DNA from: Pseudooceanicola spongiae
GTDB lineage: Bacteria; Pseudomonadota; Alphaproteobacteria; Rhodobacterales; Rhodobacteraceae
DNA: 64,000 nt
Reading direction: 5' to 3'
Assembly: GCF_014899185.1 (NCBI RefSeq)
Contig: NZ_CP045201.1
Location: 914,501-978,500 of the forward strand
The stretch's first letter is position 1. Each line of letters starts with the position of its first letter. Positions 38,970 through 62,811 of this stretch are shown here, piece by piece. The translations under genes were made by a program, and so were the position numbers. The notes beneath the pieces were generated by a model. It was not told the origin of the DNA and did no database searches. It saw only the letters and a program-made list of their open reading frames with translations.

Positions 38970-39014
38970 AAAGCGATGCGCCCCTTTTCGCGAGGGGCGC
39001 ATCGCTTTTTTTTT
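38970..39014. terminator. Strong terminator after the reductase
   Basis: AAAGCGATGCGCCCC (38970-38984) pairs with GGGGCGCATCGCTTT, followed by further T on the plus strand. It also stands after the converging tctA gene. Confidence 0.85.
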
Positions 39015-39031: not shown

Positions 39032-40531
39032 TCAGCTTGCTGCTTTGCCAGTCTGCCGGCGCGCCATAATCACTGTCAGAAATAACATCACGGCCGTCAG
39101 CGCATAGATTGCCAGCGCGATGGAGCTGTGAACCAGAATCCCGAAATCTCCGCCCGAAATGGACAGCGCGCGGCGCAGGTTGTTTTCCATATCCGCCCCC
39201 AGCAGCAGACCCAGCACAACCGGCACCAGCGAGATGTCGAGCTTGCGCAGCGCATAGCCCAGCACCCCGAAGGCGATCATCACGAAGAGGTCGAACGGCG
39301 CATGGCTGATCGAATAGATGCCGATGAAACTGACCATGATCACCACCGGCATCAGCAGCCACTGGGGCAAAGACAGCAACCGGGTGAAGATGCCCACCAG
39401 TGGCACGTTCATTACCAGCAGCACGACGTTGGCGATATAGAGCGAGGCGATCAGGCCCCAGACGATCTCGGGCTGGCGTTCGAACAGCAGCGGACCGGGC
39501 TGGATGTTGAGTGAAATCAGCAGGGCCAGCATCACGGCGGTCGTGCCACTGCCCGGAACGCCGAGGGTCAGCATCGGGATGAGAGCGCCGCCCGAAGCGG
39601 CGTTGTTGCCCGCCTCAGGCGCGGCAATGCCGCGTGGGTCGCCGGTGCCGAAGGTGCCGTCCTTGTCGCTGACCTGCTTTTCCACGTTGTAGGACACGAA
39701 GGCCCCCAGCGATGCGCCCGCGCCCGGCAGAACGCCGCAGATGAAGCCGATGACCGACCCGCGCAGCGACGCCGGGAACCCGGCGAACACCTCTCGCAGT
39801 TTGGGCAGGCCACGATCCAGGGGCACCGCCTCGCCGCCCTCGCCCGCAATCCGCTCGAAATACATCAGGATTTCGCTGATTGCGAACAGACCCACGATCG
39901 AGACGATGGGGTCGAAACCGTCATACAGGTTGTAGGATCCGAAGGTGAAACGCGCCGTCCCCGTCGCCGGGTCCAGCCCGACCGAGGCCAGCATCAGCCC
40001 GATGACCGCCGCCAGAAGCGTCTTGATCGGGTTCACCCCGGCGACACCACCGATGGTCGCAAACGCCATGACGTAGAGCGCGAAATAGTCGGCCGGTCCG
40101 AAATAGATCGCGGCCTTTGCAAGGTAGGGCGCAAAGAAGGTCAGTCCCAGCGTCGCCACTGTCGCCCCCACGAACGAGGCCACGGCCGAGATGCCAAGTG
40201 CCTGCGCCGCCTTGCCCTTCTTCGCCATAGGATAGCCGTCGAGGGTGGTCATGATTGCCGGTTCGTCGCCGGGAATGTTCAGCATGATCGAGGAAATCCG
40301 TCCTCCGTACATGCAGCCGTAATAGATGCAGGACAGCAGGATCAGCGCCGAGCCGGGCGACAGTTTCATCGCGAAGGCGACGGGGATCAGGATGGCAACA
40401 CCGTTCACTGGGCCAAGCCCCGGTAGCGCGCCGATCAGCGTGCCAATAAAGCAGCCGAAGACCGCCAGCCCGAGGTTGGTTGGGGTCAGCGCCACCGAAA
40501 AACCGTCCATCAGCGCGTTCAGAATATCCAT
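39032..40531 (-). CDS. tctA: Tripartite tricarboxylate transporter large permease
   Basis: 499 residues from the ATG at 40531. The TctA signature regions GALPGLGPVNGVAILIP and GVLPGAGASLGAFVSYNVEK repeat the GxxPGxG motif in the two halves; about 12 membrane helices. Downstream member of tctCBA. The substrate is a carboxylate that the adjacent CoA-transferase and lyase genes may metabolise. Confidence 0.93.
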   Translation of the reverse strand: MDILNALMDGFSVALTPTNLGLAVFGCFIGTLIGALPGLGPVNGVAILIPVAFAMKLSPGSALILLSCIYYGCMYGGRISSIMLNIPGDEPAIMTTLDGYPMAKKGKAAQALGISAVASFVGATVATLGLTFFAPYLAKAAIYFGPADYFALYVMAFATIGGVAGVNPIKTLLAAVIGLMLASVGLDPATGTARFTFGSYNLYDGFDPIVSIVGLFAISEILMYFERIAGEGGEAVPLDRGLPKLREVFAGFPASLRGSVIGFICGVLPGAGASLGAFVSYNVEKQVSDKDGTFGTGDPRGIAAPEAGNNAASGGALIPMLTLGVPGSGTTAVMLALLISLNIQPGPLLFERQPEIVWGLIASLYIANVVLLVMNVPLVGIFTRLLSLPQWLLMPVVIMVSFIGIYSISHAPFDLFVMIAFGVLGYALRKLDISLVPVVLGLLLGADMENNLRRALSISGGDFGILVHSSIALAIYALTAVMLFLTVIMARRQTGKAAS

Positions 40532-40538
40532 GTCACCC

Positions 40539-40970
40539 TCAGCCGATGAACGCAGGGGCCAGTGGCAAAGGCAGCCCCAGAACGTTGTTGAAAAGCAGAT
40601 ACAGCCCGACGCCTGTCCCAAGGCCCGTCGCGAGGGCGCGCATCGCCCGTGCCCCGAACAAGGCCGCGAGCAGTGCGGTGGCGAGCGTCGTCGAAACCGG
40701 AAAGCCCAGCGGCTCCAGCAGCAGGACGTAGCCGATCAGAACGGCCAGCGTGGCCAGTTGTTTCAGCCGCGCGCGATCCATGCGGAAGTCGGGGTTCGGG
40801 TCCGGTCGAAAGATCATGCCGAGGCTGAGGATGGCCGCCAGCGCGGCGACCATCTGCGGGAAGACCGCGGGGCCCAAAGGGTCCCCGAAGCCTGCCTCAT
40901 AGCCCCGGGCGACCAAAAATACCGTGACCGAAATCACCAGTATCATCAGCCCCACAAGGCGGTCGATCAT
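40539..40970 (-). CDS. tctB: Tripartite tricarboxylate transporter small permease
   Basis: 143 residues with four membrane helices, typical of TctB. Overlaps tctC by four bases at its start and lies seven bases before the tctA ATG. Confidence 0.88.
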   Translation of the reverse strand: MIDRLVGLMILVISVTVFLVARGYEAGFGDPLGPAVFPQMVAALAAILSLGMIFRPDPNPDFRMDRARLKQLATLAVLIGYVLLLEPLGFPVSTTLATALLAALFGARAMRALATGLGTGVGLYLLFNNVLGLPLPLAPAFIG

Positions 40971-41935
40971 TTGATGACGCCGATCTGGCGGGAGATTTCC
41001 TCCATCTGCTGCGCCTGTTGTTCGACATAGGTTTCGAACTCTGCACCGCCGCGCCAGACCGGGATCAGCCCGTTCGCCTCAGCCGCAGCCTTCCACTCCT
41101 CGCTGTCGTAAAGGGTGTTCAAGGCCGCGACCCAGCCGTCGTAATCGGCATCCGAGACCTCGCCGCCGGTGTAGAACCCGCGCCAGTTGTAGCCGGTCAC
41201 GTCATAGCCCTGCGCCTTGGCCGTGGGCGCGTCGGGGAAAGCCGGGATCGGGTCGTCCGACAGGGCCGCGAGAATGCGGATGTCGCCCGATTGCACGAAG
41301 CCCGCGATCTCGCCCAGGTCGGTCGACACCGCGCCAACCTGCCCGCCCATCATCTGGGTCACGGCGGGGCCACCCCCATCGAACTGCACCCAGCGGATTG
41401 CCTTGTAGGCGTCGCCGGTCATGCCCGCGCTGTCGGCCAGCATCAGCAAGCGGATGTGATCCCAGCCCCCTGCGCCTGACGAGCCTGCGACCGGCACCGA
41501 GGTCGGATCGTCCTTCAATGCGCCCAGCAAATCGTCGAGCGAGGCATAGGGCGAGGCTGCGGGCACCACGATGACGCCAACGTCAGAGCCGAGCATCCCG
41601 ACCCAACGCATCACATCCACACCACCGGGATATTTGCCCTGCGCGATCTGCGTGACACCGACGGTCGAGGTGGCGACCAGCAGATCGCCTTCATCCGCAC
41701 GTTTGCCGGCCACATTGGCAAAGGCTACCGCGCCGACACCGCCAGGCATGTTGGTGACCTGCACAGGGGCCTCTTCGATGCCAAGCTCGGTCAGCAGCCG
41801 CCCGACGGTGCGGCAGGTGAAATCCCAACCGCCACCGGGATCTGCCGGGGCAATGCATTCGGCCGCGCTCGCAGCTGTTGCCGACATTCCGGCAGCCATC
41901 ACGACCGCCACTAAAAGGTTGCGTTTCATAGACAT
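40967..41935 (-). CDS. tctC: Tripartite tricarboxylate transporter substrate-binding protein
   Basis: 322 residues; ATGs at 41935 and 41929 both follow GGGAGGAG. A signal peptide covers about 1-26. The mature protein starts ECIAPADPGGGWDFTCRTVG, the TctC carboxylate-binding P-loop-like region, followed by QVTNMPGGVGAVAFANVA. GAGGWDH in the middle is the second ligand loop. Confidence 0.92.
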   Translation of the reverse strand: MSMKRNLLVAVVMAAGMSATAASAAECIAPADPGGGWDFTCRTVGRLLTELGIEEAPVQVTNMPGGVGAVAFANVAGKRADEGDLLVATSTVGVTQIAQGKYPGGVDVMRWVGMLGSDVGVIVVPAASPYASLDDLLGALKDDPTSVPVAGSSGAGGWDHIRLLMLADSAGMTGDAYKAIRWVQFDGGGPAVTQMMGGQVGAVSTDLGEIAGFVQSGDIRILAALSDDPIPAFPDAPTAKAQGYDVTGYNWRGFYTGGEVSDADYDGWVAALNTLYDSEEWKAAAEANGLIPVWRGGAEFETYVEQQAQQMEEISRQIGVIK

Positions 41936-41968
41936 GTCTCCTCCCTGAGTTCTGTCTTCTTTCGGTTT

Positions 41969-42038
41969 TGGGGGGTAAGCCCCCTCCGCTCCAGTCTTTG
42001 GGGGCAAGCCCCCTCTCCGCGCGGTCCTCCACCGCGCG
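41969..42038. repeat. Three consecutive GC hairpins between tctC and its regulator
   Basis: GGGGGGTAAGCCCCC (about 41970-41984), GGGGGCAAGCCCCC (42000-42013) and CCGCGCGG...CCGCGCG (about 42017-42037) stand side by side. The first two are near copies. Lacking long T-runs, they may separate the GntR gene from tctC or stabilise mRNA. Confidence 0.5.
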
Positions 42039-42044
42039 AAGTCG

Positions 42045-42767
42045 TCAGTCTTGCGCCGTGCTGTCCACGATCCCACGCGTGCCAAGAAACCGTTTGGCAT
42101 TGCCGACGGCGACAAGGATCTGGTCGCGCACGGCGCGCGTGTGAAGTCGTACCGCCTCCGCTGCCGCCTCTTCGTTCCGGGCCGCAACGTGATCCAGTAT
42201 CGCACAATGCTCCGTCCAAGCCGTTTCGCGCTGCGCTGGATCACTGGCCAGCAGCCAGCGCAGACGCAGGGCACGCGCGACGGCATTCTGCACCGCGTCG
42301 CGCAGGAACACATTGCCCGAGAGCGCCGCCAGCTCGACATGGATATCGAGGCCTTGCGCCAGCCATTCCTCAGGGTCGATATCGGCGCGACCGCGATCGA
42401 CCGTGGCACGCAAGGCAGCCAGTCCCTCGGGGCTGGCACGTCGACTGGCCAGACGCACCGCGTCGTCCTCAACCTCCTCGCGGTACTCGAACAGCGCGTG
42501 GATCTCCTGAATGTCGATGGGGGCAACCTCATAACCGCCGCGGGCGCCACGGTTGATCAGGCCCTGCTGCACCAGCATGGCCAGCGCCTGACGGATCGGG
42601 GTGCGCGACACGCCATAGCGATCCTGCAGAAACCGCTCTGACACGGCCTCGCCCGGGGCGAAGGTCATCGACAGGATCTCCTGGCGCAGCAGCAGCAGGG
42701 CCTGATCCCCGCGCGGCGCAACAAGCCCTTGTTCGGCACCCGTTTTATGATCTCTGATTGTCGGCAT
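42045..42767 (-). CDS. GntR-family (FCD) regulator of the tct/HMGL/CoA-transferase locus
   Basis: 240 residues from the ATG at 42767, after AGAGGGG. Winged helix RQEILSMTFAPGEAVSERFLQDRYGVSRTPIRQALAMLVQQGLI, then an all-helical FCD ligand domain with the metal-binding residues near HVELAALSGN and WTEHCAILDHV. Lies between the transporter and enzyme arms; candidate operators precede it. Confidence 0.9.
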   Translation of the reverse strand: MPTIRDHKTGAEQGLVAPRGDQALLLLRQEILSMTFAPGEAVSERFLQDRYGVSRTPIRQALAMLVQQGLINRGARGGYEVAPIDIQEIHALFEYREEVEDDAVRLASRRASPEGLAALRATVDRGRADIDPEEWLAQGLDIHVELAALSGNVFLRDAVQNAVARALRLRWLLASDPAQRETAWTEHCAILDHVAARNEEAAAEAVRLHTRAVRDQILVAVGNAKRFLGTRGIVDSTAQD

Positions 42768-42786
42768 TGACCCCTCTGGTTGAGTC

Positions 42787-42808
42787 GGTATACCACGTTG
42801 GTGGACCA
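42787..42808. promoter_or_regulatory. Two GntR/FadR-type operators in the divergent promoter
   Basis: GGTATACC (42787-42794) and TGGTGGACCA (42799-42808) match the TGGTnnACCA pattern of FCD-type GntR regulators. Centres are 13 bases apart, between the regulator and the lyase gene. Confidence 0.65.
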
Positions 42809-42836
42809 CATCAACAGATTTGGCGGAGGAAAACGA

Positions 42837-43799
42837 ATGTCGCATCACAGAGTGCAGGGGTTCCCCGAACACGTCCGCGTCGTGGATGTGGGGCCACGGG
42901 ACGGATTGCAGGCCTGGCCTGATCCGGTGCCGACCGAGACCAAGATCGCCATGGTCAACGGGCTGATTGATGCCGGTATCCCTCAGCTGGAGGTGACCTC
43001 ATTTGTCTCGCCGCGCGCGGTGCCGCAGCTCTCCGATGCGGCCGAGGTGCTGGCCCAGATCGACCGCAGTCGCGGGGCCGAGCTGACGGCACTGGTGCCG
43101 AATGCGAAAGGTGCCGCGCGCGCGATTGAGGCCGGGATCGATGCGATGGTCGTGTTCCTGTCCGCCTCGGAGAGCCACAATCAGGCCAATGTGAATGGGT
43201 CGCGCGCCCGCTCTCTGGCGGCGGCCGCAGAGATTGCCCGCATGGGCGAACAGGCCGGTATTCCGGTTTATGGCGCCATCGCCACCGCCTTTGGCTGCCC
43301 GTTTGAGGGCAATGTGCCCGTCGCCGATATCGTGCATGTGGCACAGGCCTATGCCGACAGCGGTATTCGCAAGATCAGCCTTGGCGACACCACTGGCATG
43401 GCGACGCCGCTGCTGGTGCAGGAGCGTTGCCGCAACCTAGCCGAGGCGGTCCCCGAGGCCGACATTGCCCTGCATTTTCACAATACGCGCGGCGTCGGTC
43501 TGGCCTGTGTCTATGCCGGTTTGCTGGAGGGGATCACCCGGTATGAGGCCAGTCTTGGCGGCATTGGCGGCTGCCCCTTTGCGCCCGGCGCCACCGGCAA
43601 TATCTGCACCGAGGATCTGGTCTATCTGCTGCACGAAAGCGGCGTCGAGACTGGGATCGATGCCGACAAGCTGCTCAGCCTCGCCCGCTGGACGGAAACG
43701 CAACTGGGCCGCGCCCTGCCCGGTCAGCTGATCAAGGCCGGACCGCGGCTGCATCTACGTCAGCGCGACGAAGTGCGCAGCGCCAGTGGGCGCGCGTGA
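42837..43799 (+). CDS. HMG-CoA lyase-family enzyme (HMGL-like TIM barrel)
   Basis: 320 residues from the ATG at 42837, after GGCGGAGG. Signatures are DVGPRDGLQ (metal Asp and catalytic Arg), LHFHNTRG (metal histidines) and GGIGGCPFAPGATGN (catalytic Cys). It cleaves a 3-hydroxy-acyl-CoA into acetyl-CoA or pyruvate plus a second product. The stop overlaps the CoA-transferase start, suggesting that enzyme supplies its CoA ester. Confidence 0.88.
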   Translation: MSHHRVQGFPEHVRVVDVGPRDGLQAWPDPVPTETKIAMVNGLIDAGIPQLEVTSFVSPRAVPQLSDAAEVLAQIDRSRGAELTALVPNAKGAARAIEAGIDAMVVFLSASESHNQANVNGSRARSLAAAAEIARMGEQAGIPVYGAIATAFGCPFEGNVPVADIVHVAQAYADSGIRKISLGDTTGMATPLLVQERCRNLAEAVPEADIALHFHNTRGVGLACVYAGLLEGITRYEASLGGIGGCPFAPGATGNICTEDLVYLLHESGVETGIDADKLLSLARWTETQLGRALPGQLIKAGPRLHLRQRDEVRSASGRA

Positions 43800-44980
43800 T
43801 GGGCGTGTCGGCAAAGCTTCCCCTCGACGGCGTGCGGGTGATCGATCTGACGCGCATCCTGTCGGGGCCGTTCTGCTCGATGCTGCTCGGGGATATGGGC
43901 GCAGAGGTGATCAAGATCGAAAGCCGGGACGGAGATCCGGTGCGGGCACAGGGCCATCACAAGGACGGGTTGTCGTGGTATTTCGCCGGGTTCAACCGCA
44001 ACAAGAAGTCCGTCGTGCTGGATCTGCACACCGATGAGGGCAAGGCCGCGTTGACCCGTTTGCTGGAGGGCGCGGATGTCCTGGTCGAAAACTATCGCCC
44101 CGGCGTGCTGGCGCGTATGGGCTTTTCTCAGGCCCGCCTTGAGGCGCTGAATCCGGGCCTTGTGACCGCCAGCATCAACGGGTTCGGCAGCGAAGGCCCC
44201 TATACGGAGCGTCCTGCTTTTGACTTCATCGCTCAGGCGATGAGTGGATTCATGAGCGTGAATGGCCCTGATGCGGCGCATCCCATGCGGGCCGCACAGC
44301 CGATTTCCGACCTGATTGCGGGCCTCTATTCCGCCTTCGGCATTGTCTCTGCGCTGCGCGGGCGCGACCGCGACGGCCTTGGCCAGCATGTCGAAACGGC
44401 GATGGTGAACGGCGCGCTGAGCTTTATGGCCTATCTTGCGTCAGAGCATTTCGTGACCGATCGCAACCCGGTTCAGACCGGCAATGATCACCCGCTCGTG
44501 GCGCCCTATGGTCTGTATGAAACAGCCGATGGGCAGATCGCCATCGCCCCGTCAAACGAGCAGATCCTGCAAAAGCTGCTGAGCGAGATCGGCCTGCCGA
44601 CCCTGATGCAGGACCCGCGCTTTGACAGCAACGACAAGCGCTTTGCGCGCCGTGCCGAGTTGCATGACATCCTCGATGCGGCGATGGCCACGGACAGTCG
44701 CGACAACTGGATCGCCCGTTTGAACCGGGCCGGTGTGCCAGCCGGCAAGGTCCAGTCGTTGCAGGATGTTTTCACGGACCCGCAAATCGTGGCTCAGGAG
44801 ATGGCGATCGACGTGCATCATGAAGGGCACGGAAACGTGCGGATGCTCGGCTTTCCGGTCAAGCTGAGCCGGACCCCCTGTGCGGCCCGCCTGCCCGCTC
44901 CGAAGCTGGGCGAACACACAGATGCCGTGCTGTCCGCCGCTGGCGTGAGCCCCATGGCCACAGGTAGAGAGATTTCCTGA
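43799..44980 (+). CDS. Class III (Frc/CaiB-type) CoA-transferase
   Basis: 393 residues from the ATG at 43799 (a GTG at 43796 is the alternative). N-terminal GVRVIDLTRILSGPFCSMLLGDMGAEVIKIE is the family hallmark. The catalytic Asp is probably in PAFDFIAQAMSGFMSVNG. It moves CoA between carboxylates. Together with the lyase and TctABC, it fits uptake, activation and cleavage of a branched hydroxy-dicarboxylate such as citramalate or 3-hydroxy-3-methylglutarate (inference). Confidence 0.88.
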   Translation: MGVSAKLPLDGVRVIDLTRILSGPFCSMLLGDMGAEVIKIESRDGDPVRAQGHHKDGLSWYFAGFNRNKKSVVLDLHTDEGKAALTRLLEGADVLVENYRPGVLARMGFSQARLEALNPGLVTASINGFGSEGPYTERPAFDFIAQAMSGFMSVNGPDAAHPMRAAQPISDLIAGLYSAFGIVSALRGRDRDGLGQHVETAMVNGALSFMAYLASEHFVTDRNPVQTGNDHPLVAPYGLYETADGQIAIAPSNEQILQKLLSEIGLPTLMQDPRFDSNDKRFARRAELHDILDAAMATDSRDNWIARLNRAGVPAGKVQSLQDVFTDPQIVAQEMAIDVHHEGHGNVRMLGFPVKLSRTPCAARLPAPKLGEHTDAVLSAAGVSPMATGREIS

Positions 44981-45099
44981 GGCGTTGAAACTCTGGCTTG
45001 TACGGGCTTCTCTTTTGGCATCGGAAGAAAAGCAGATCAGCGCGAAGGGGGCGCTGCTGTCTAGCAAGTAAGATGGTGTCGTCAGGGCGAGCGCGACAC

Positions 45100-45148
45100 A
45101 TCATATGGTGATCTGTGAAAATTCACGGCATTATATGTTTCATATGGT
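45100..45148. promoter_or_regulatory. CATATG-centred sites upstream of the GntR gene
   Basis: ATCATATGGTGATC at 45100-45113 and CATATGGT again at 45141-45148 lie in the 280-base AT-richer gap before the GntR gene at 45263. A 14-base near copy of the first is found at 49307-49320 upstream of the TRAP binding protein. Confidence 0.55.
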
Positions 45149-45262
45149 ATTGCCCATAAAATCCTATATTGCTCCTTAAAGTGTCACCGCTACGCTGCTA
45201 TTTGGGCCACCGGGCCCGCAGGCGATGGCACTGGCCACGCCACACAGACAGGAGACAGGCGC

Positions 45263-45949
45263 ATGAGTGGAAAGACGTTTTTCCTCGACAAGGACGGTGA
45301 CAGCATTGCTGACAAGGTCCTGCGCCGGATCCGCTTTGATATCATCACCAATACTCTGAAGCCCGGTGACCGGCTGCGGCTGGAGCGCCTGCGTGAAACA
45401 TATGGTGCCAGTGTCAGCACGCTGCGAGAGATCCTCAACCGGCTGGCGGCGGAGTACTTCGTCGTGGCCGAGGGCAATCGTGGCTTCGGCGTGGCCCCGA
45501 TCAGTCAGCGGGACCTGCGCGATATCTGTGAAATGCGTCTGCTTCTGGAATGCCATGCCCTGCGCCGCTCGATCGAGGTTGGCTCGCTCGACTGGGAAGC
45601 GCAGGTGGTCTGCTGCCATCACAAGCTGCATACGGTCGAAAGCCAGCTGATCGGCGGTGACGACACGCAGGTCATGAAATGGGTGCAGTACGACTGGGAT
45701 TTTCACCATGCGACGGTTGTGGCCTGCGACAGGCCCGTCCTCAGCGCCAGCCACTCCAACATCTTTGACCGCTTCATGCGTTACCATCTCTACGTGCTGG
45801 ACTTTCGCGGCCGCCCCGCTGCGGAAGAACATGCCCGCTTGCGGGATCTGGTGGTCGGGCGCGATGCAGACGGAGCCGTCGCGCTGCTCACCTCTCATGT
45901 CACGGCCGGGATGGAACACATCATTGCAAGCGGCAAGATCCCGGCCTGA
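45263..45949 (+). CDS. GntR-family (FCD) regulator, probable regulator of the aroQ-like/TRAP genes
   Basis: 228 residues. Winged helix ADKVLRRIRFDIITNTLKPGDRLRLERLRETYGASVSTLREILNRLAAEYFV, then an FCD domain with DWDFHHATV. Converges on the aroQ-like gene (three bases between stops), with no shared promoter, but shared site sequences tie it to the TRAP promoter. Confidence 0.88.
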   Translation: MSGKTFFLDKDGDSIADKVLRRIRFDIITNTLKPGDRLRLERLRETYGASVSTLREILNRLAAEYFVVAEGNRGFGVAPISQRDLRDICEMRLLLECHALRRSIEVGSLDWEAQVVCCHHKLHTVESQLIGGDDTQVMKWVQYDWDFHHATVVACDRPVLSASHSNIFDRFMRYHLYVLDFRGRPAAEEHARLRDLVVGRDADGAVALLTSHVTAGMEHIIASGKIPA

Positions 45950-45952
45950 CAG

Positions 45953-46399
45953 TCAGGCGGCGACCTTGTCTGCAGCCATCTCGAGCAGCAGCTTCACGGC
46001 GTAGCCATAGCCCCGAGTGCCGGTGCCCGCCATCACGGCCGTCGCCACCCCCGAGACCAGAGAGTTATGGTACATCGGTTCACGCCGGTGGACATTGGTG
46101 ATGTGGAACTCGATCAGCGGATGCGGGTACATCTTCAGCGCATCCATGATGGCCATTGAGTAAAACGTGAAGGCCGCCGGATTGATCAACAAAGCGCAGG
46201 AACCATCGATCGCCTCGTGAATCCAGTCGATCATCTGTTCTTCCGAGTTCGTCTGACGGAACACCAGCCCCACCGAACCCGCAGCCTCGGTGCACAGAGC
46301 TTCCACCTCCGCAAGTGTCACGTGGCCATAGATCTCGGGCTCGCGCTTGCCGAGGCGGTTCAGGTTGGGGCCATTCAGAACATAGACAGGTTTGGTCAT
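45953..46399 (-). CDS. Type II 3-dehydroquinate dehydratase homologue, divergent
   Basis: 148 residues, normal length. The fold is clear from YVLNGPNLNRLGKREPEIYG (catalytic Tyr in IYG), QTNSEEQMIDWIHEA, INPAAF and EFHITNVHRREPM. Canonical NPGAYTHTS is replaced by NPAAFTFYS, so the usual His is missing. Location downstream of a TRAP permease suggests a catabolic paralogue for quinate/shikimate-type acids or a changed reaction. Confidence 0.8.
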   Translation of the reverse strand: MTKPVYVLNGPNLNRLGKREPEIYGHVTLAEVEALCTEAAGSVGLVFRQTNSEEQMIDWIHEAIDGSCALLINPAAFTFYSMAIMDALKMYPHPLIEFHITNVHRREPMYHNSLVSGVATAVMAGTGTRGYGYAVKLLLEMAADKVAA

Positions 46400-46405
46400 G
46401 TTTTC

Positions 46406-47701
46406 TTATCCATTGTAACCGAAGAGACGCGGCAGCCAGAGCGAAAGCTCCGGGATCAGCGTGATGAGGAGCAGCGCGACCAGCAAGGCGCAGAGGAACG
46501 GCAGGATTTCCCTGATGATCTGGCTGAGCGAGCAGCCTGAGATCGTGGTCATCACAAAGAGCAGCAGGCCGTAGGGCGGCGTGATGAGCCCCAGCATGAT
46601 GTTGACCACGCAGACGATCCCGAAATGCACCATGTCGATGCCCAGAGCGCTGGCTGTTGGAATGAAGACCGGTACGATGACCAGCAGGATCGTGGTGCCT
46701 TCAAGCAGGCATCCAAGGACCAGCAGGATCAGATTGACGATCAGCAGAAAGGCGATCGGCGAGAGGTCGAAACCGGCAAGCCAGAGGCTGAGCGCTGCGG
46801 GAATGTTCTCCACCGTGATCACGTAGTTGAAGACGAGGGCTCCGGCGATCAGCATGCCGATGGAGGCCGTGGTGCGTGCGCTGGAGAGGACAGAGGTGTA
46901 GGTCGAGCGCAGCGATATGCTGCGATAGAGAACGGCCGAGACAATCAGCGCATAGAGCGCCGCAACGGCCGCGGCTTCGGTCGGTGTGGTGGCGCCCCCG
47001 TAGATCCCGCCCAATAGGACGACCGGCATCATCAGGGCGGGAAACGCATCGAAGGTAATCTTGGGCAGCTCGCGCAGGGGCACTGGCTGCTCGACAGGGA
47101 AATTTCTGCGGCGCGCCGTCAGTATGATGATGCCCGCCTGCACAAGCCCCATCAGAAGGCCCGGCACGACACCGGCCAGAAAAAGGTAGCCGATGGAGGC
47201 ATCCGAGACGAGAGCGTAGATCACCATCGGGATCGACGGCGGGATGATCGGACCGATCACCGCTGTGGACGCCGTCAGCGCGGCAGCGAATGCGGGGGGA
47301 TATTTGCCGCCTTCCGTCATCATCCTCTGCATCATCTTACCCGAGCCAGCCGCATCGGCGATGGCCGAGCCAGACATGCCGGCAAAGATGATGGACTGCG
47401 CCACGTTGACCAGAGCAAGGCCGCCCTGAAAGCGCCCGATGAATGCGTTGCAGAAGGCCAGAAGCCGCAGTGTCATGTTGCCCGAGTTCATCAGCTCGGC
47501 CGCGAGGATGAAAAGAGGGACCGCCAGCAGGATATAGCTTGAGAACATGCCGTTCAGCAGCTGTTCGGCGGCGGTGCCCATGTCCTGCCCGCTCATCAGC
47601 AGGTAGAGGATCGACGAGGTGATCATCGCATGGCCAACGGGCAGACCCAGCAGCGCCAGCAGAATGATCGACAGAATGGCGGCACTAAACGGATCTATCA
47701 C
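46406..47701 (-). CDS. TRAP transporter large permease (DctM), second system
   Basis: 431 residues, about 12 membrane helices. Family segments AGMSGSAIADAAGSGKMMQ, PPSIPMVIYALVSDASIG and GGATTPTEAAAVAALYAL. Its start overlaps the dctQ stop by four bases; the dehydroquinase gene follows after six bases. Confidence 0.92.
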   Translation of the reverse strand: MIDPFSAAILSIILLALLGLPVGHAMITSSILYLLMSGQDMGTAAEQLLNGMFSSYILLAVPLFILAAELMNSGNMTLRLLAFCNAFIGRFQGGLALVNVAQSIIFAGMSGSAIADAAGSGKMMQRMMTEGGKYPPAFAAALTASTAVIGPIIPPSIPMVIYALVSDASIGYLFLAGVVPGLLMGLVQAGIIILTARRRNFPVEQPVPLRELPKITFDAFPALMMPVVLLGGIYGGATTPTEAAAVAALYALIVSAVLYRSISLRSTYTSVLSSARTTASIGMLIAGALVFNYVITVENIPAALSLWLAGFDLSPIAFLLIVNLILLVLGCLLEGTTILLVIVPVFIPTASALGIDMVHFGIVCVVNIMLGLITPPYGLLLFVMTTISGCSLSQIIREILPFLCALLVALLLITLIPELSLWLPRLFGYNG

Positions 47702-48222
47702 GGCTCGCCCTCCGCGCCGCCAGAGCGGCGGGCATCGGCGTCACGCCCGCGCAGCGCCGCCCAGAGCAACCAGCCGTAGCGTGCCAGCGTGGCCACCGCG
47801 AAGATGATGTAGATAGAGTAGACCCAGTCGTAGCGCAGATCGAGGTAGGAGGTTTCCTGTATCTTCATGAAGGTGACGAAGTCCCAGGCCGCAGGCAGTG
47901 AATATCCGTAGAGAAACAACAGTGCTATGCAGGCGAGTATCGTCATCAATCGGCGGGTCCGCGGCCCGACCATCGAGATCAGGAAGTCGAAGCGGATTTC
48001 TTCACGCTCTCGCAACACGAAGGACGCCCCCCAGAGAACCAGCCAGAGCCACATGATCGTGGTCAGCTCCGAAGCGCCACCGACAGGGAGGTTCAGCAGA
48101 TAGCGAAAGGCCACCTGCACAACGAAGGCAATGAACATCACTGTCAGCATCGCGACGGCAATATCCTCGGCCCTGCGCCGCAGCCAGGACCCGAGCACAG
48201 TCAGTCTTTCCAAGTTTCTCAC
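47698..48222 (-). CDS. TRAP transporter small permease (DctQ), second system
   Basis: 174 residues with four membrane helices. FVVQVAFRYLLNLPVGGASELTTIMWLWLVLWGASFVLREREEIRFD is the DctQ core. Middle gene of the dctPQM-aroQ-like operon. Confidence 0.88.
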   Translation of the reverse strand: MRNLERLTVLGSWLRRRAEDIAVAMLTVMFIAFVVQVAFRYLLNLPVGGASELTTIMWLWLVLWGASFVLREREEIRFDFLISMVGPRTRRLMTILACIALLFLYGYSLPAAWDFVTFMKIQETSYLDLRYDWVYSIYIIFAVATLARYGWLLWAALRGRDADARRSGGAEGEP

Positions 48223-48288
48223 CTTTCAGCCACCGCACCCCGAAACAGGGTGCGGCAGTGGTTGGAAGCAGTGGATGGAGGCAGCGGG

Positions 48289-49275
48289 TCAGAGGCTGTT
48301 GATGCGCTCAAGCATGCCGTCGGGCCAGTCCTGGGACAGTTCCGACTCCAGGTACATCTGCTGCGCATGGGTGCGGAAGGCTTCCAGGTCGGGGGTGTAT
48401 ATCTTGACGCCCTGTTCCTTGAAGAAGGACGCAAGCTCCTCCTCGCGTGCGAGATGTTGCTGGGCGCTCCATGCGATTGCCTCGTCCGCGGCAGCCTGGA
48501 ACGTGGCGCGTTGCTCCTGCGTGAAGCCGTTCCAGACCTCACTGGAGACGACCAGCAGATCGTAGCCCACCAAGTGCGACGTCAACACGATCTGCTTCAA
48601 CACCTCATAGAACTTCATGTTCTGGACGTTGGGCAAGGGGTTGTCCTGACCATCGATCGCGCCGGTTTGCAGGCCGGTATAGACTTCGGCGTAGGCCATG
48701 GGCGTCGGATTGGCCCCCAGCGACTTGCCCAGAAATTGCCATGCATCTCCGCCTGGCATCCGTAGCTTCACGCCGGCCATGTCCTGTGGTGTATTGATCT
48801 GCTTGTCGATCCGCAGGCCCACCTGTCGGGTACCGAAGTACGTCGGCCCCAGGATGTGAATGCCCAGCTTTTCTTCCGCCAGTCCCACCATCTCCGCCCC
48901 GGCGTCACTGTTGAAGAAGGCGTTCAGGTGTTCGACGTCCCGGAAGAGATAGGCAGATGTCAGGATCGAGAACTCCTTGATCTGTGTCGCGATATCTTGA
49001 GGCGCGACATTGCCCATATCCAGGTTGCCGCGCTGGATCGCGATGATTTCGGTGGTCTGCTTGAACAGGTTGCCGCCGTAGAAAAGTTCGAGATTTGCAA
49101 AGTCCGAGACAGAAGCGGCCAGCTTCTTCATCATCTCTGCACGGATGTCCTGCTCAGAGAAAACAGCCGAGAAGCGAAGCTGCTTCGCGTCCTGCGCGAA
49201 AGCTGGCACACCTGTGCCAAGCGTCAGGCCGGCAGCTGCCATACCCCCTAGAAATATCCTACGGTTTGTCATCAA
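48289..49275 (-). CDS. TRAP transporter substrate-binding protein (DctP), second system
   Basis: 328 residues. N-terminal NRRIFLGGMAAAGL resembles a Tat-type signal, cleaved near AFA-QD (about 28). The ligand Arg lies in MAGVKLRMPGGDAWQ, followed by GAIDGQDNPLPNVQNMKF, the usual DctP clamp. A candidate operator lies about 30 bases upstream of its start. The substrate is unknown. Confidence 0.92.
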   Translation of the reverse strand: MMTNRRIFLGGMAAAGLTLGTGVPAFAQDAKQLRFSAVFSEQDIRAEMMKKLAASVSDFANLELFYGGNLFKQTTEIIAIQRGNLDMGNVAPQDIATQIKEFSILTSAYLFRDVEHLNAFFNSDAGAEMVGLAEEKLGIHILGPTYFGTRQVGLRIDKQINTPQDMAGVKLRMPGGDAWQFLGKSLGANPTPMAYAEVYTGLQTGAIDGQDNPLPNVQNMKFYEVLKQIVLTSHLVGYDLLVVSSEVWNGFTQEQRATFQAAADEAIAWSAQQHLAREEELASFFKEQGVKIYTPDLEAFRTHAQQMYLESELSQDWPDGMLERINSL

Positions 49276-61671: not shown

Positions 61672-62811
61672 TCAGACCAGAAGCGCACGCAAGGCGTCGA
61701 GCGTGCGCTCAATGCCCGCCTCTGTGGTCATAACGCCGGGCGACATCCGCAGGATCTGGCTGCGGTTATCGACGTAGATCTGCTGCTCGCGCAGGGCGGC
61801 CACCACATCTGCGGCGGGGATGTGATCTGGCAGGATGACCATCAGGCTGCCACCGCGCTTTTCGGGGTCCGACGGGCTGGCCAGCTGCAGTCCCATGCCT
61901 TCCAGCCCCGCCTGTAGCAGCGTCGTCAGAGCACGGTTCCCCGCTGCGATTGCCGCATCATCCTGCGCCATGCGCCACTGCATCGCGGGCAGACTGGCGA
62001 GGGCCGAAACGCTCGACGGGGTGCCGCTGTCGAGGCGGCGGGCATCATCGGCAAACGCGAAGGCATCCAGCGCCCATGAGAACGGATTGTCCTGCGAAAA
62101 CCAGCCGCGCATCTCAGGCTCGCTGCGGGCCAGAAGGTCGCTGTCCATGTAGATGATGCCCGCGCCGGGGGTGCCGCACATCCACTTCAGGCTGGTCGAC
62201 AGGGCGAAATCCACCTTCGGGGTCGTGACGTCATAGGGCAAAAGGCCCGCGCCCTGCGTCAGATCCACCCCGATCAGCGACCCCATGGCGCGGCCATGCG
62301 CGACCAGTCGTGGAATATCGAGGCGGTGCGAACTGGTCGAACTGACCCAGGTGAGCAAGGCCAGCGCCACGCCTTCGTCCCACTCCGCCATCATGTCCTC
62401 TTCCTCGACCCAATGCCCGCCCTGCCGGATCGGCACGGTGGTCAGGGTGAAGCCAAAGCGCTGCGACAGCCCGGTCAGCAGGAAGTGCAGCGAGGGAAAG
62501 CCGTCTTCGGACACAAGCACCTTCTTGCCACGTAAAGTGCCCTCGGGCAGCGCGCCGATCACGGCCATCAGGCCCGTGGTCACGCTCTCTGTCGTGGTGA
62601 CAGTGCCCTTGGGCGCATGGATCAGCTGGGCCCAGAGGTCGATGAATTGCTGGCGCTTGCCCAGCACATCGCCCCATTGATCGCCATTGGGCGCGCCCCA
62701 GACATCTGCAAAGCCCGCAAGGGCCGCGGTCATATCTTCGCGCTTACCCTCGTATTGACCGATGGAGTGGTAGAGCAGATAGGCGTCGCCCTTTCCCGGG
62801 AGTGTGGACAT
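61672..62811 (-). CDS. Class V aminotransferase-fold enzyme (kynureninase/cysteine desulfurase-like)
   Basis: 379 residues. PLP-binding features: TESVTTGLMAVI, the Asp in GVDLTQGAGLLP and the Schiff-base lysine in STSLKWMCGTPGAGIIY. Closer in layout to kynureninase-like proteins than to NifS. It lies just downstream of an amino acid ABC transporter on the same strand and may process the imported compound. Confidence 0.82.
   Translation of the reverse strand: MSTLPGKGDAYLLYHSIGQYEGKREDMTAALAGFADVWGAPNGDQWGDVLGKRQQFIDLWAQLIHAPKGTVTTTESVTTGLMAVIGALPEGTLRGKKVLVSEDGFPSLHFLLTGLSQRFGFTLTTVPIRQGGHWVEEEDMMAEWDEGVALALLTWVSSTSSHRLDIPRLVAHGRAMGSLIGVDLTQGAGLLPYDVTTPKVDFALSTSLKWMCGTPGAGIIYMDSDLLARSEPEMRGWFSQDNPFSWALDAFAFADDARRLDSGTPSSVSALASLPAMQWRMAQDDAAIAAGNRALTTLLQAGLEGMGLQLASPSDPEKRGGSLMVILPDHIPAADVVAALREQQIYVDNRSQILRMSPGVMTTEAGIERTLDALRALLV

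Follow-up and report, generated by a model that had tools for sequence, protein, structure and literature searches.

We analysed a stretch of 64,000 nucleotides (hereafter the window; positions 914501-978500) of the single-contig 4.37 Mb genome of Pseudooceanicola spongiae, in which positions 39032-44980 hold TctA, TctB, TctC and a GntR regulator on the minus strand, opposite an HMGL-family lyase and a class III coenzyme A (CoA)-transferase on the plus strand. The minus-strand genes encode the large membrane subunit TctA (39032-40531; PF01970, 505.8 bits), the small membrane subunit TctB (40539-40970; PF07331, 79.8 bits), the periplasmic solute-binding protein TctC (40967-41935; PF03401, 63.1 bits) and an FCD-family GntR regulator (42045-42767; PF00392, 58.2 bits; PF07729, 78.6 bits), whose start methionine was picked by eye within a longer open frame. 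With the three Tct families in one gene run, the importer belongs to the tripartite tricarboxylate transporters. On the plus strand, the lyase gene (42837-43799; PF00682) has GGAGG on its 5′ side (42825-42829) and is followed by the transferase gene, which is of the CaiB/Frc type (43796-44980; PF02515, 435.9 bits). Overlaps of 4 bp between lyase and transferase and between TctC and TctB suggest translational coupling, and a consensus scan of 41900-45300 gave no sigma-70-like promoter (0.6 expected).

The gap between the divergent GntR and lyase genes contains two operator-like sites, CGGTATACCA (42786-42795) and TGGTGGACCA (42799-42808), arranged as the tandem CGGTATACCA-N3-TGGTGGACCA (42786-42808). 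The first is one base off TGGTnnACCA, which we take to be the operator consensus of the FCD-GntR family, and the regulator combines a GntR helix-turn-helix with an FCD domain and such an operator nearby, as FCD-type GntR proteins do. Degenerate single sites are not rare in the window (4, with 3.95 expected from 20 first-order simulations); the tandem with its 13-bp phase occurs once, and in 0 of 20 simulated windows. When 87 loci (1.56 Mb) were scanned, 19 tandems were found, every one between GntR and lyase. Twenty-six of these loci, the window included, have a minus-strand GntR gene adjoining the lyase (L059, whose downstream GntR match is weak, was omitted); every one of the 26 gaps has one site or more, compared with 0.02 sites expected per 182 bp, and 19 have two sites 13 bp apart. 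The initial annotation of this stretch had described TctABC, a class III CoA-transferase and an HMGL lyase sharing one GntR regulator with two TGGTnnACCA-like sites; the Pfam matches place every one of these genes here, and the conservation of the sites in the gaps of GntR-linked loci shows that both are real.

Searching the whole genome, we found the tandem without mismatch at one place, which also matches on the other strand with two mismatches. Allowing two mismatches added one further place; with the backward control, one strand yielded three matches and the opposite strand none. This single mismatch-free tandem does not indicate a further tandem-controlled gene, for instance one for an acetoacetate-activating enzyme, and no second tandem target is indicated in the genome, where the search covered tandems and not single sites. 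The FCD-GntR protein is a probable ligand-responsive repressor.

The lyase and transferase genes are found together well beyond the window. Among the named relatives, which are the best 80 of 380, the transferase adjoins the lyase on the same strand at 72 loci. The loci without such a neighbour are L032, L051, L085, L091, L095, L097, L098 and L101, of which L095 and L101 are situated at the edge of a contig and L097 has a transferase on the opposite strand. We also searched Pseudomonadota genomes with the sequence of the Acinetobacter baumannii structure 6nds and counted 40 loci (the phylum set; G000, G112, G154, G478 and G633 excluded); here the transferase is directly upstream in 35, downstream in 2, on the opposite strand in 1 and absent in 2, so that a same-strand pair is present in 37. 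The transferase is mostly the second gene in the named loci and mostly the first in the phylum set.

The importer varies; those seen next to the pair come from carboxylate-type families. TctABC lies near the pair at 25 of the 80 named loci, TRAP genes (DctP and DctM) at 7 and TAXI at 4; at the remaining 44, none of the three was recognised nearby under the thresholds used. In the phylum set, a LysR gene and MFS, TRAP, SSF or TctC genes lie near many of the pairs. The lyase-transferase pair is therefore a conserved module with an exchangeable importer. Five loci with the TRAP version (L045, L048, L058, L067 and L100) encode a GntR protein that is 37-45% identical and have the same type of operator, which speaks for a shared inducer and a shared class of substrate. 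The DctP protein of L045 gave 93 matches in the PDB, the best at 121 bits, which is too distant for ligand transfer.

The six-gene order is repeated on three plasmids, of Alloyangia, Nitratireductor and Skermanella, out of six examined among 399 plasmid records with a related lyase, and on many named contigs from several orders; the TctA copy of the Alloyangia pacifica plasmid locus (L012) is 84% identical. The other plasmids depart from this order: the Ponticoccus plasmid has no GntR gene in the gap, that of P. denitrificans has LysR and no Tct genes, and that of Variovorax has PrpR and a different gene order. Among culturable relatives, Nitratireductor aquimarinus and Tritonibacter scottomollicae have the whole locus and Paracoccus denitrificans PD1222 the LysR version. 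Within the window's genus, a lyase near 345 bits occurs in 1 of 22 genomes, the other copies scoring 397-458 or 231-277 bits and three genomes having none over the cut-off. A match at E <= 1e-85 is present in 9 of 387 genomes of the class, that of the window being one of them. This distribution points to an accessory and perhaps mobile trait. Of 397 Pseudomonadota genomes sampled, 45, again with that of the window, have a lyase of this kind.

That the six genes are chance neighbours without a common pathway is very improbable. The divergent order does mean two transcripts, but the order recurs on plasmids and on contigs of several orders, and the shared gap holds a conserved operator. The locus is a real, conserved and regulated module for import, activation and cleavage. 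The uptake, CoA activation and cleavage under one GntR regulator that the initial annotation proposed thus agree with the conserved gene set, the operators and the swapped importers, and the acid itself is a separate matter to which we return below. Among the matches listed in our literature search, which left most subscription papers outside, none was a paper describing this HMGL/CoA-transferase/Tct locus.

The lyase reaches 345 bits with the hydroxymethylglutaryl-CoA lyase model NF004283 (cut-off 246). Its predicted structure has a mean predicted local distance difference test score (pLDDT) of 89.9 (from 20 sequences) and matches the 3-hydroxy-3-methylglutaryl-CoA (HMG-CoA) lyases of Bacillus subtilis, human and other organisms with Z scores of 40.9-44.8. 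By structure, B. subtilis HMG-CoA lyase 1ydo ranks first (Z 44.8), with human 2cw6 at 44.2 and 6nds at 43.0; by sequence, 6nds (270.4 bits) stands before 1ydo (268.7 bits) among the PDB entries. A review (PMC6941031) gives Arg41, Glu72, Tyr167 and Cys266 as the most critical residues of the human enzyme, and Asp42, Asn275, His233 and His235 as its metal ligands. The structural alignment with 2cw6 is offset by 20 residues, so that Ala147 of the window lyase corresponds to human Tyr167. The window lyase is an HMGL-like TIM barrel that retains R21, D22, E52, H213, H215, C246 and N255, and it differs from canonical HMG-CoA lyase at Ala147. It also has His-Asn-Thr-Arg where HMG-CoA lyases have His-Asp-Thr.

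The loss of Tyr167 extends to nearly all relatives. At this position, 85 of 86 related loci lack tyrosine (A 64, G 11, V 6, D 3, S 1, Y 1), as do all 40 loci of the phylum set (S 33, T 5, G 1, A 1), while the equivalents of Arg41, Asp42, His233, His235, Cys266 and Asn275 are conserved wherever the row covers the position. The sole tyrosine among the 86 loci belongs to the most distant relative, Variovorax L017 (43%). Tyrosine is also present in the liu-type enzyme of the same genome, in nine other copies from the genus, and in 1ydo and 2ftp; 6nds has threonine, and a second Skermanella lyase serine. In a quick tree without bootstrap, a split (support 98) separates the window lyase, 6nds and 85 others from the liu-type set, the B. 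subtilis and P. aeruginosa enzymes, L017 and the second Skermanella copy; the placement of the long branches L017, 6nds, L015, 1ydo and the Skermanella copy is unsure.

The liu-type HMG-CoA lyase of the genome (L002) adjoins enoyl-CoA hydratase-like and biotin-carboxylase-subunit-like genes, whose translations were read by eye. The window lyase lacks such a leucine-catabolism context, a role that L002 seems to fill, and we rejected leucine breakdown as the function of the window locus because of this separate copy. Models and database records label the lyase without Tyr167 "hydroxymethylglutaryl-CoA lyase", and the subfamily is probably misnamed in this way. A further HMG-CoA-lyase-like gene of the same genome (L003, G000:C1:486822-487229) is truncated, covering profile positions 3-138 only, and the adjoining frame reads by eye as TRAP DctM-like.

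The catalytic residue of class III CoA-transferases is an aspartate. Asp171 of the window enzyme, counted from the ATG at 43799, aligns with an aspartate in both 4hl6 and 4ed9, which together with the PF02515 match makes it a member of this class. Human succinate-hydroxymethylglutarate CoA-transferase 9br6 was its fourth match (235 bits). For TctC, the top PDB sequence match was 25hk (84 bits), and the structure predicted from six near relatives (pLDDT 35.5) was not used.

Overall, we propose, at a probability of roughly 55%, that the locus is an inducible and self-contained catabolic module that takes (R)-citramalate to acetyl-CoA and pyruvate. TctC would capture a small 2-hydroxydicarboxylate, which TctAB would import, and the class III CoA-transferase would then pass CoA to the acid, with succinyl-CoA as one possible donor. 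The HMGL-fold lyase would cleave the CoA ester by a metal-dependent retro-Claisen reaction, most likely (R)-citramalyl-CoA to acetyl-CoA and pyruvate, and the next candidate would be the isomer 3-methylmalate, with glyoxylate and propionyl-CoA as products. The FCD-GntR protein would occupy the two operators of the gap until released by the acid or its CoA ester. The gene content and arrangement, the operators and their conservation, the catalytic residues, the lost Tyr167 and the swapped importers are observed, whereas we infer which acid is taken up, what donates CoA, in which direction the regulator acts and what is released. The module is thus firm, and the acid is not.

Citramalate is favoured over 3-hydroxy-3-methylglutarate (HMG) because the Tyr167 equivalent is gone, because the genome has its own liu-type HMG-CoA lyase, and because the title of 6nds, an enzyme that likewise lacks this tyrosine, describes it as bound to CoA and 3-methylmalate. 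3-Methylmalate is, like citramalate, a C5 diacid with the hydroxyl beside a carboxylate; in HMG, the second carboxylate is one carbon further. According to a passage on Rv2498c in PMC6689899, (S)-citramalyl-CoA corresponds to (R)-HMG-CoA, and by this stereochemical match an HMGL-fold enzyme of the (S)-HMG-CoA type should take (R)-citramalyl-CoA. Cleavage into pyruvate and acetyl-CoA would call for no further gene, which fits a regulon of one locus.

HMG itself (meglutol) would be the substrate if the transferase made (S)-HMG-CoA and the lyase were a true HMG-CoA lyase yielding acetoacetate and acetyl-CoA. The score above the NF004283 cut-off, the retention of the metal and catalytic residues other than Tyr167, the first place of 1ydo by structure and its close second by sequence, and the match of the transferase to 9br6 are consistent with this reading. 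We nevertheless consider it unlikely, given the alanine at the Tyr167 position, the non-tyrosine residues of 85 of 86 and 40 of 40 relatives, the tyrosine-bearing liu-type enzyme elsewhere in the genome and the lack of another tandem through which acetoacetate activation could be regulated. Of the acids that the initial annotation had suggested, citramalate thus fits better, and 3-hydroxy-3-methylglutarate is the less likely one.

The ligand named in the 6nds title speaks for 3-methylmalate or malate as the acid, which the lyase would split into glyoxylate and propionyl-CoA or acetyl-CoA. The isopropylmalate/isocitrate-dehydrogenase-like gene that follows the pair in SAR116 loci is a second point in favour of these acids. 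However, 6nds is 43-44% identical and has threonine and not alanine at the tyrosine position, the SAR116 relatives are 53-54% identical, and none of the nine window genes scanned is a propionyl-CoA or glyoxylate gene. We regard these substrates as improbable, on a level with HMG.

Several observations weigh against (R)-citramalate. The loss of Tyr167 suggests an altered acyl pocket and does not tell which acyl group it accepts, and the window lyase scores above the NCBIfam cut-off for HMG-CoA lyase. Glutamine replaces the equivalent of Glu72 in 7 of the 86 related loci and in 1 of the 40 of the phylum set, so that the clade may be non-uniform. By sequence, 6nds leads the tyrosine-bearing 1ydo narrowly, and 1ydo comes first by structure; it is therefore the motif and not overall similarity that ties the window lyase to 6nds, in which the 3-methylmalate may be incidental. 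No equivalog model names the CoA-transferase, the best being NF052585 (319 bits; cut-off 750) in a comparison that covered succinate-glutarate, oxalate, mesaconate and carnitine CoA-transferases. Further regulon members are possible, as 7 of the 26 GntR-linked loci have a single operator only. Variovorax L017 pairs a tyrosine-bearing HMGL protein with a CoA-transferase and TctC, so that the pairing alone is no substrate marker. Lastly, the accessory genes of distant relatives differ. Twenty-four of the 80 loci have an SMP-30/lactonase-like gene upstream of the lyase, SAR116 has a set of enoyl-CoA hydratase, isocitrate-dehydrogenase-like and oxalomesaconate-tautomerase-like genes, and Zwartia has racemase-like and tricarballylate-dehydrogenase-like (TcuA-like) genes; these hint that some branches of the family may use other acids or larger ones.

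Such a larger acid could be another 2-alkylmalate or a tricarboxylate (2-isopropylmalate, citrate, homocitrate or a lactone), admitted by a pocket that the loss of Tyr167 has enlarged, and the lyase would then reverse, after CoA transfer, a reaction like that of isopropylmalate or homocitrate synthase. A change from tyrosine to alanine, serine or glycine should make room for it, and tricarboxylates are transported by the Tct family. The lactonase-like genes just mentioned point the same way, and so, among relatives, do a TcuA-like gene (349.5 bits; cut-off 369) and a PrpF/oxalomesaconate-tautomerase-like gene (441.6 bits; cut-off 440). None of the nine window genes scanned is an accessory gene of this kind, though, 6nds holds a C5 diacid, and no SMP-30-like gene was found near L012 or L028-L038, where it was the only accessory gene looked for. 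This reading is doubtful. In our ranking (R)-citramalate leads, followed by 3-methylmalate or malate together with HMG, and then by the larger alkylmalates and tricarboxylates.

The arrangement of these relatives is as follows. At L056 (8949-9947), an SMP-30/gluconolactonase-like gene lies upstream of the lyase, a type seen in many Rhodospirillales and metagenome-assembled genome loci; where such a gene is present, the substrate might occur outside the cell as a lactone. In the SAR116 locus L093 (8895-16145), a TAXI-like gene lies opposite an apparent operon that begins with lyase, CoA-transferase and enoyl-CoA hydratase and continues with isocitrate/isopropylmalate-dehydrogenase-like, 4-oxalomesaconate-tautomerase-like and AbrB domain protein genes. 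Zwartia L103 (8759-15054) has CoA-transferase, lyase, TctC, Asp/Glu racemase-like, TcuA-like flavin adenine dinucleotide dehydrogenase and SDR genes. Variovorax L017 (4698-12924) has a prpR-annotated gene opposite CoA-transferase, tyrosine-bearing HMGL and TctC genes, followed by an isocitrate lyase/phosphoenolpyruvate mutase family gene, a hydrolase and a further TctC, and may be a version of the module for HMG or a methyl acid. The Skermanella plasmid locus L014 (10410-16942) adjoins the six-gene locus with DctP, GntR, CoA-transferase, alcohol dehydrogenase, HMGL and aldehyde dehydrogenase genes; this second HMGL protein, with its serine at the Tyr167 position, has aspartate replacing the asparagine of the family. 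At L098, no transferase was found beside the lyase, and a nearby fumarase that we considered as a clue to a mesaconase was rejected because it is of the ordinary class II type (740 bits; cut-off 664.75).

The (R)-citramalyl-CoA lyase of Chloroflexus is said, in a paper from 2006, to belong to the HMGL family, and a lyase with a class III transferase is presumably what defines the Chloroflexus pair; in the window, too, an HMGL-fold lyase stands beside a class III CoA-transferase. Compared by description, Sct and Ccl of Chloroflexus aurantiacus appear to be a similar combination of CoA-transferase and lyase for a C5 hydroxydiacid. PMC8307300 lists (R)-citramalyl-CoA lyase (EC 4.1.3.46) and succinyl-CoA-D-citramalate CoA-transferase (EC 2.8.3.20), and the Chloroflexus transferase work is cited among the type III CoA-transferases in PMC9196870, under a title that sets it in carbon fixation. 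A CoA-transferase and a lyase for (R)-citramalate are thus already known, and what differs here is that an importer and a GntR regulator of its own accompany the pair. The initial annotation had called the locus "complete" and its acid "unknown"; the first overstates a locus with an inferred substrate, and the second a route of which the Chloroflexus transferase and lyase had been described.

With the HMG-CoA lyases MvaB, LiuE and HMGCL (EC 4.1.3.4), the window lyase has the fold, the metal ligands and most catalytic residues in common, and it differs from them in the absence of Tyr167, in its separate clade in the quick tree and in having a CoA-transferase as partner instead of leucine-pathway genes. 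A. baumannii 6nds, although named an HMG-CoA lyase, lacks Tyr167 and has the HNTRG motif, like the window lyase, and the homologues found with it mostly adjoin a class III CoA-transferase. The two differ in that they are 43-44% identical and that the loci found with 6nds mostly have LysR and the transferase first. Our literature search found no paper on the function of 6nds.

The (S)-citramalyl-CoA lyase of the Pseudomonas itaconate cluster Ict-Ich-Ccl is of the CitE type. This cluster also joins a CoA-transferase to carbon-carbon cleavage of a branched C5 diacid, and it requires itaconyl-CoA hydratase and (S)-citramalyl-CoA lyase, as stated in PMC12290011. No domain of an itaconyl-CoA hydratase or a CitE-type lyase was found among the nine window genes scanned, and itaconate is therefore unlikely as the direct substrate.

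The genes around the locus look unrelated. A PRISE-like reductase gene precedes TctA, and between the two lies a strong terminator-like site, a plus-strand hairpin of 17 pairs with a T run behind it (38970-39008; 1 found, 0.3 expected). Downstream, 45263-49275 holds a second FCD-GntR gene (plus strand), a type II 3-dehydroquinate dehydratase gene (minus strand), a DctM-like gene (38% to the DctM of L050) and a TRAP DctP gene (minus strand), which look like a separate uptake set, perhaps for quinate-like acids; these GntR/AroQ/TRAP genes were rejected as part of the module because their regulator is different and no operator tandem is found there. At 61672-62811, a weak kynureninase-like match (60 bits; cut-off 246) is probably another pyridoxal phosphate enzyme.

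If the lyases without Tyr167 do act on such acids, many HMG-CoA lyase annotations would give the wrong substrate, and the route by which environmental bacteria degrade branched hydroxydiacids (citramalate, 3-methylmalate and their kin) would be testable with two purified enzymes. We tentatively suggest, as a broader possibility that we hold with low confidence, that a large subfamily of so-called HMG-CoA lyases, lacking Tyr167 and carrying the HNTRG motif, is a general device for the degradation of 2-alkylmalates, in most cases coupled to a class III CoA-transferase and to an importer that can be exchanged. Acting on CoA esters, these lyases would reverse chemistry like that of citramalate, isopropylmalate or homocitrate synthases, and the residue in place of Tyr167 would contribute to the choice of acyl group. 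On this view, the locus in the window would be one member of the subfamily, possibly for an acid that is new as a bacterial growth substrate by such a route.

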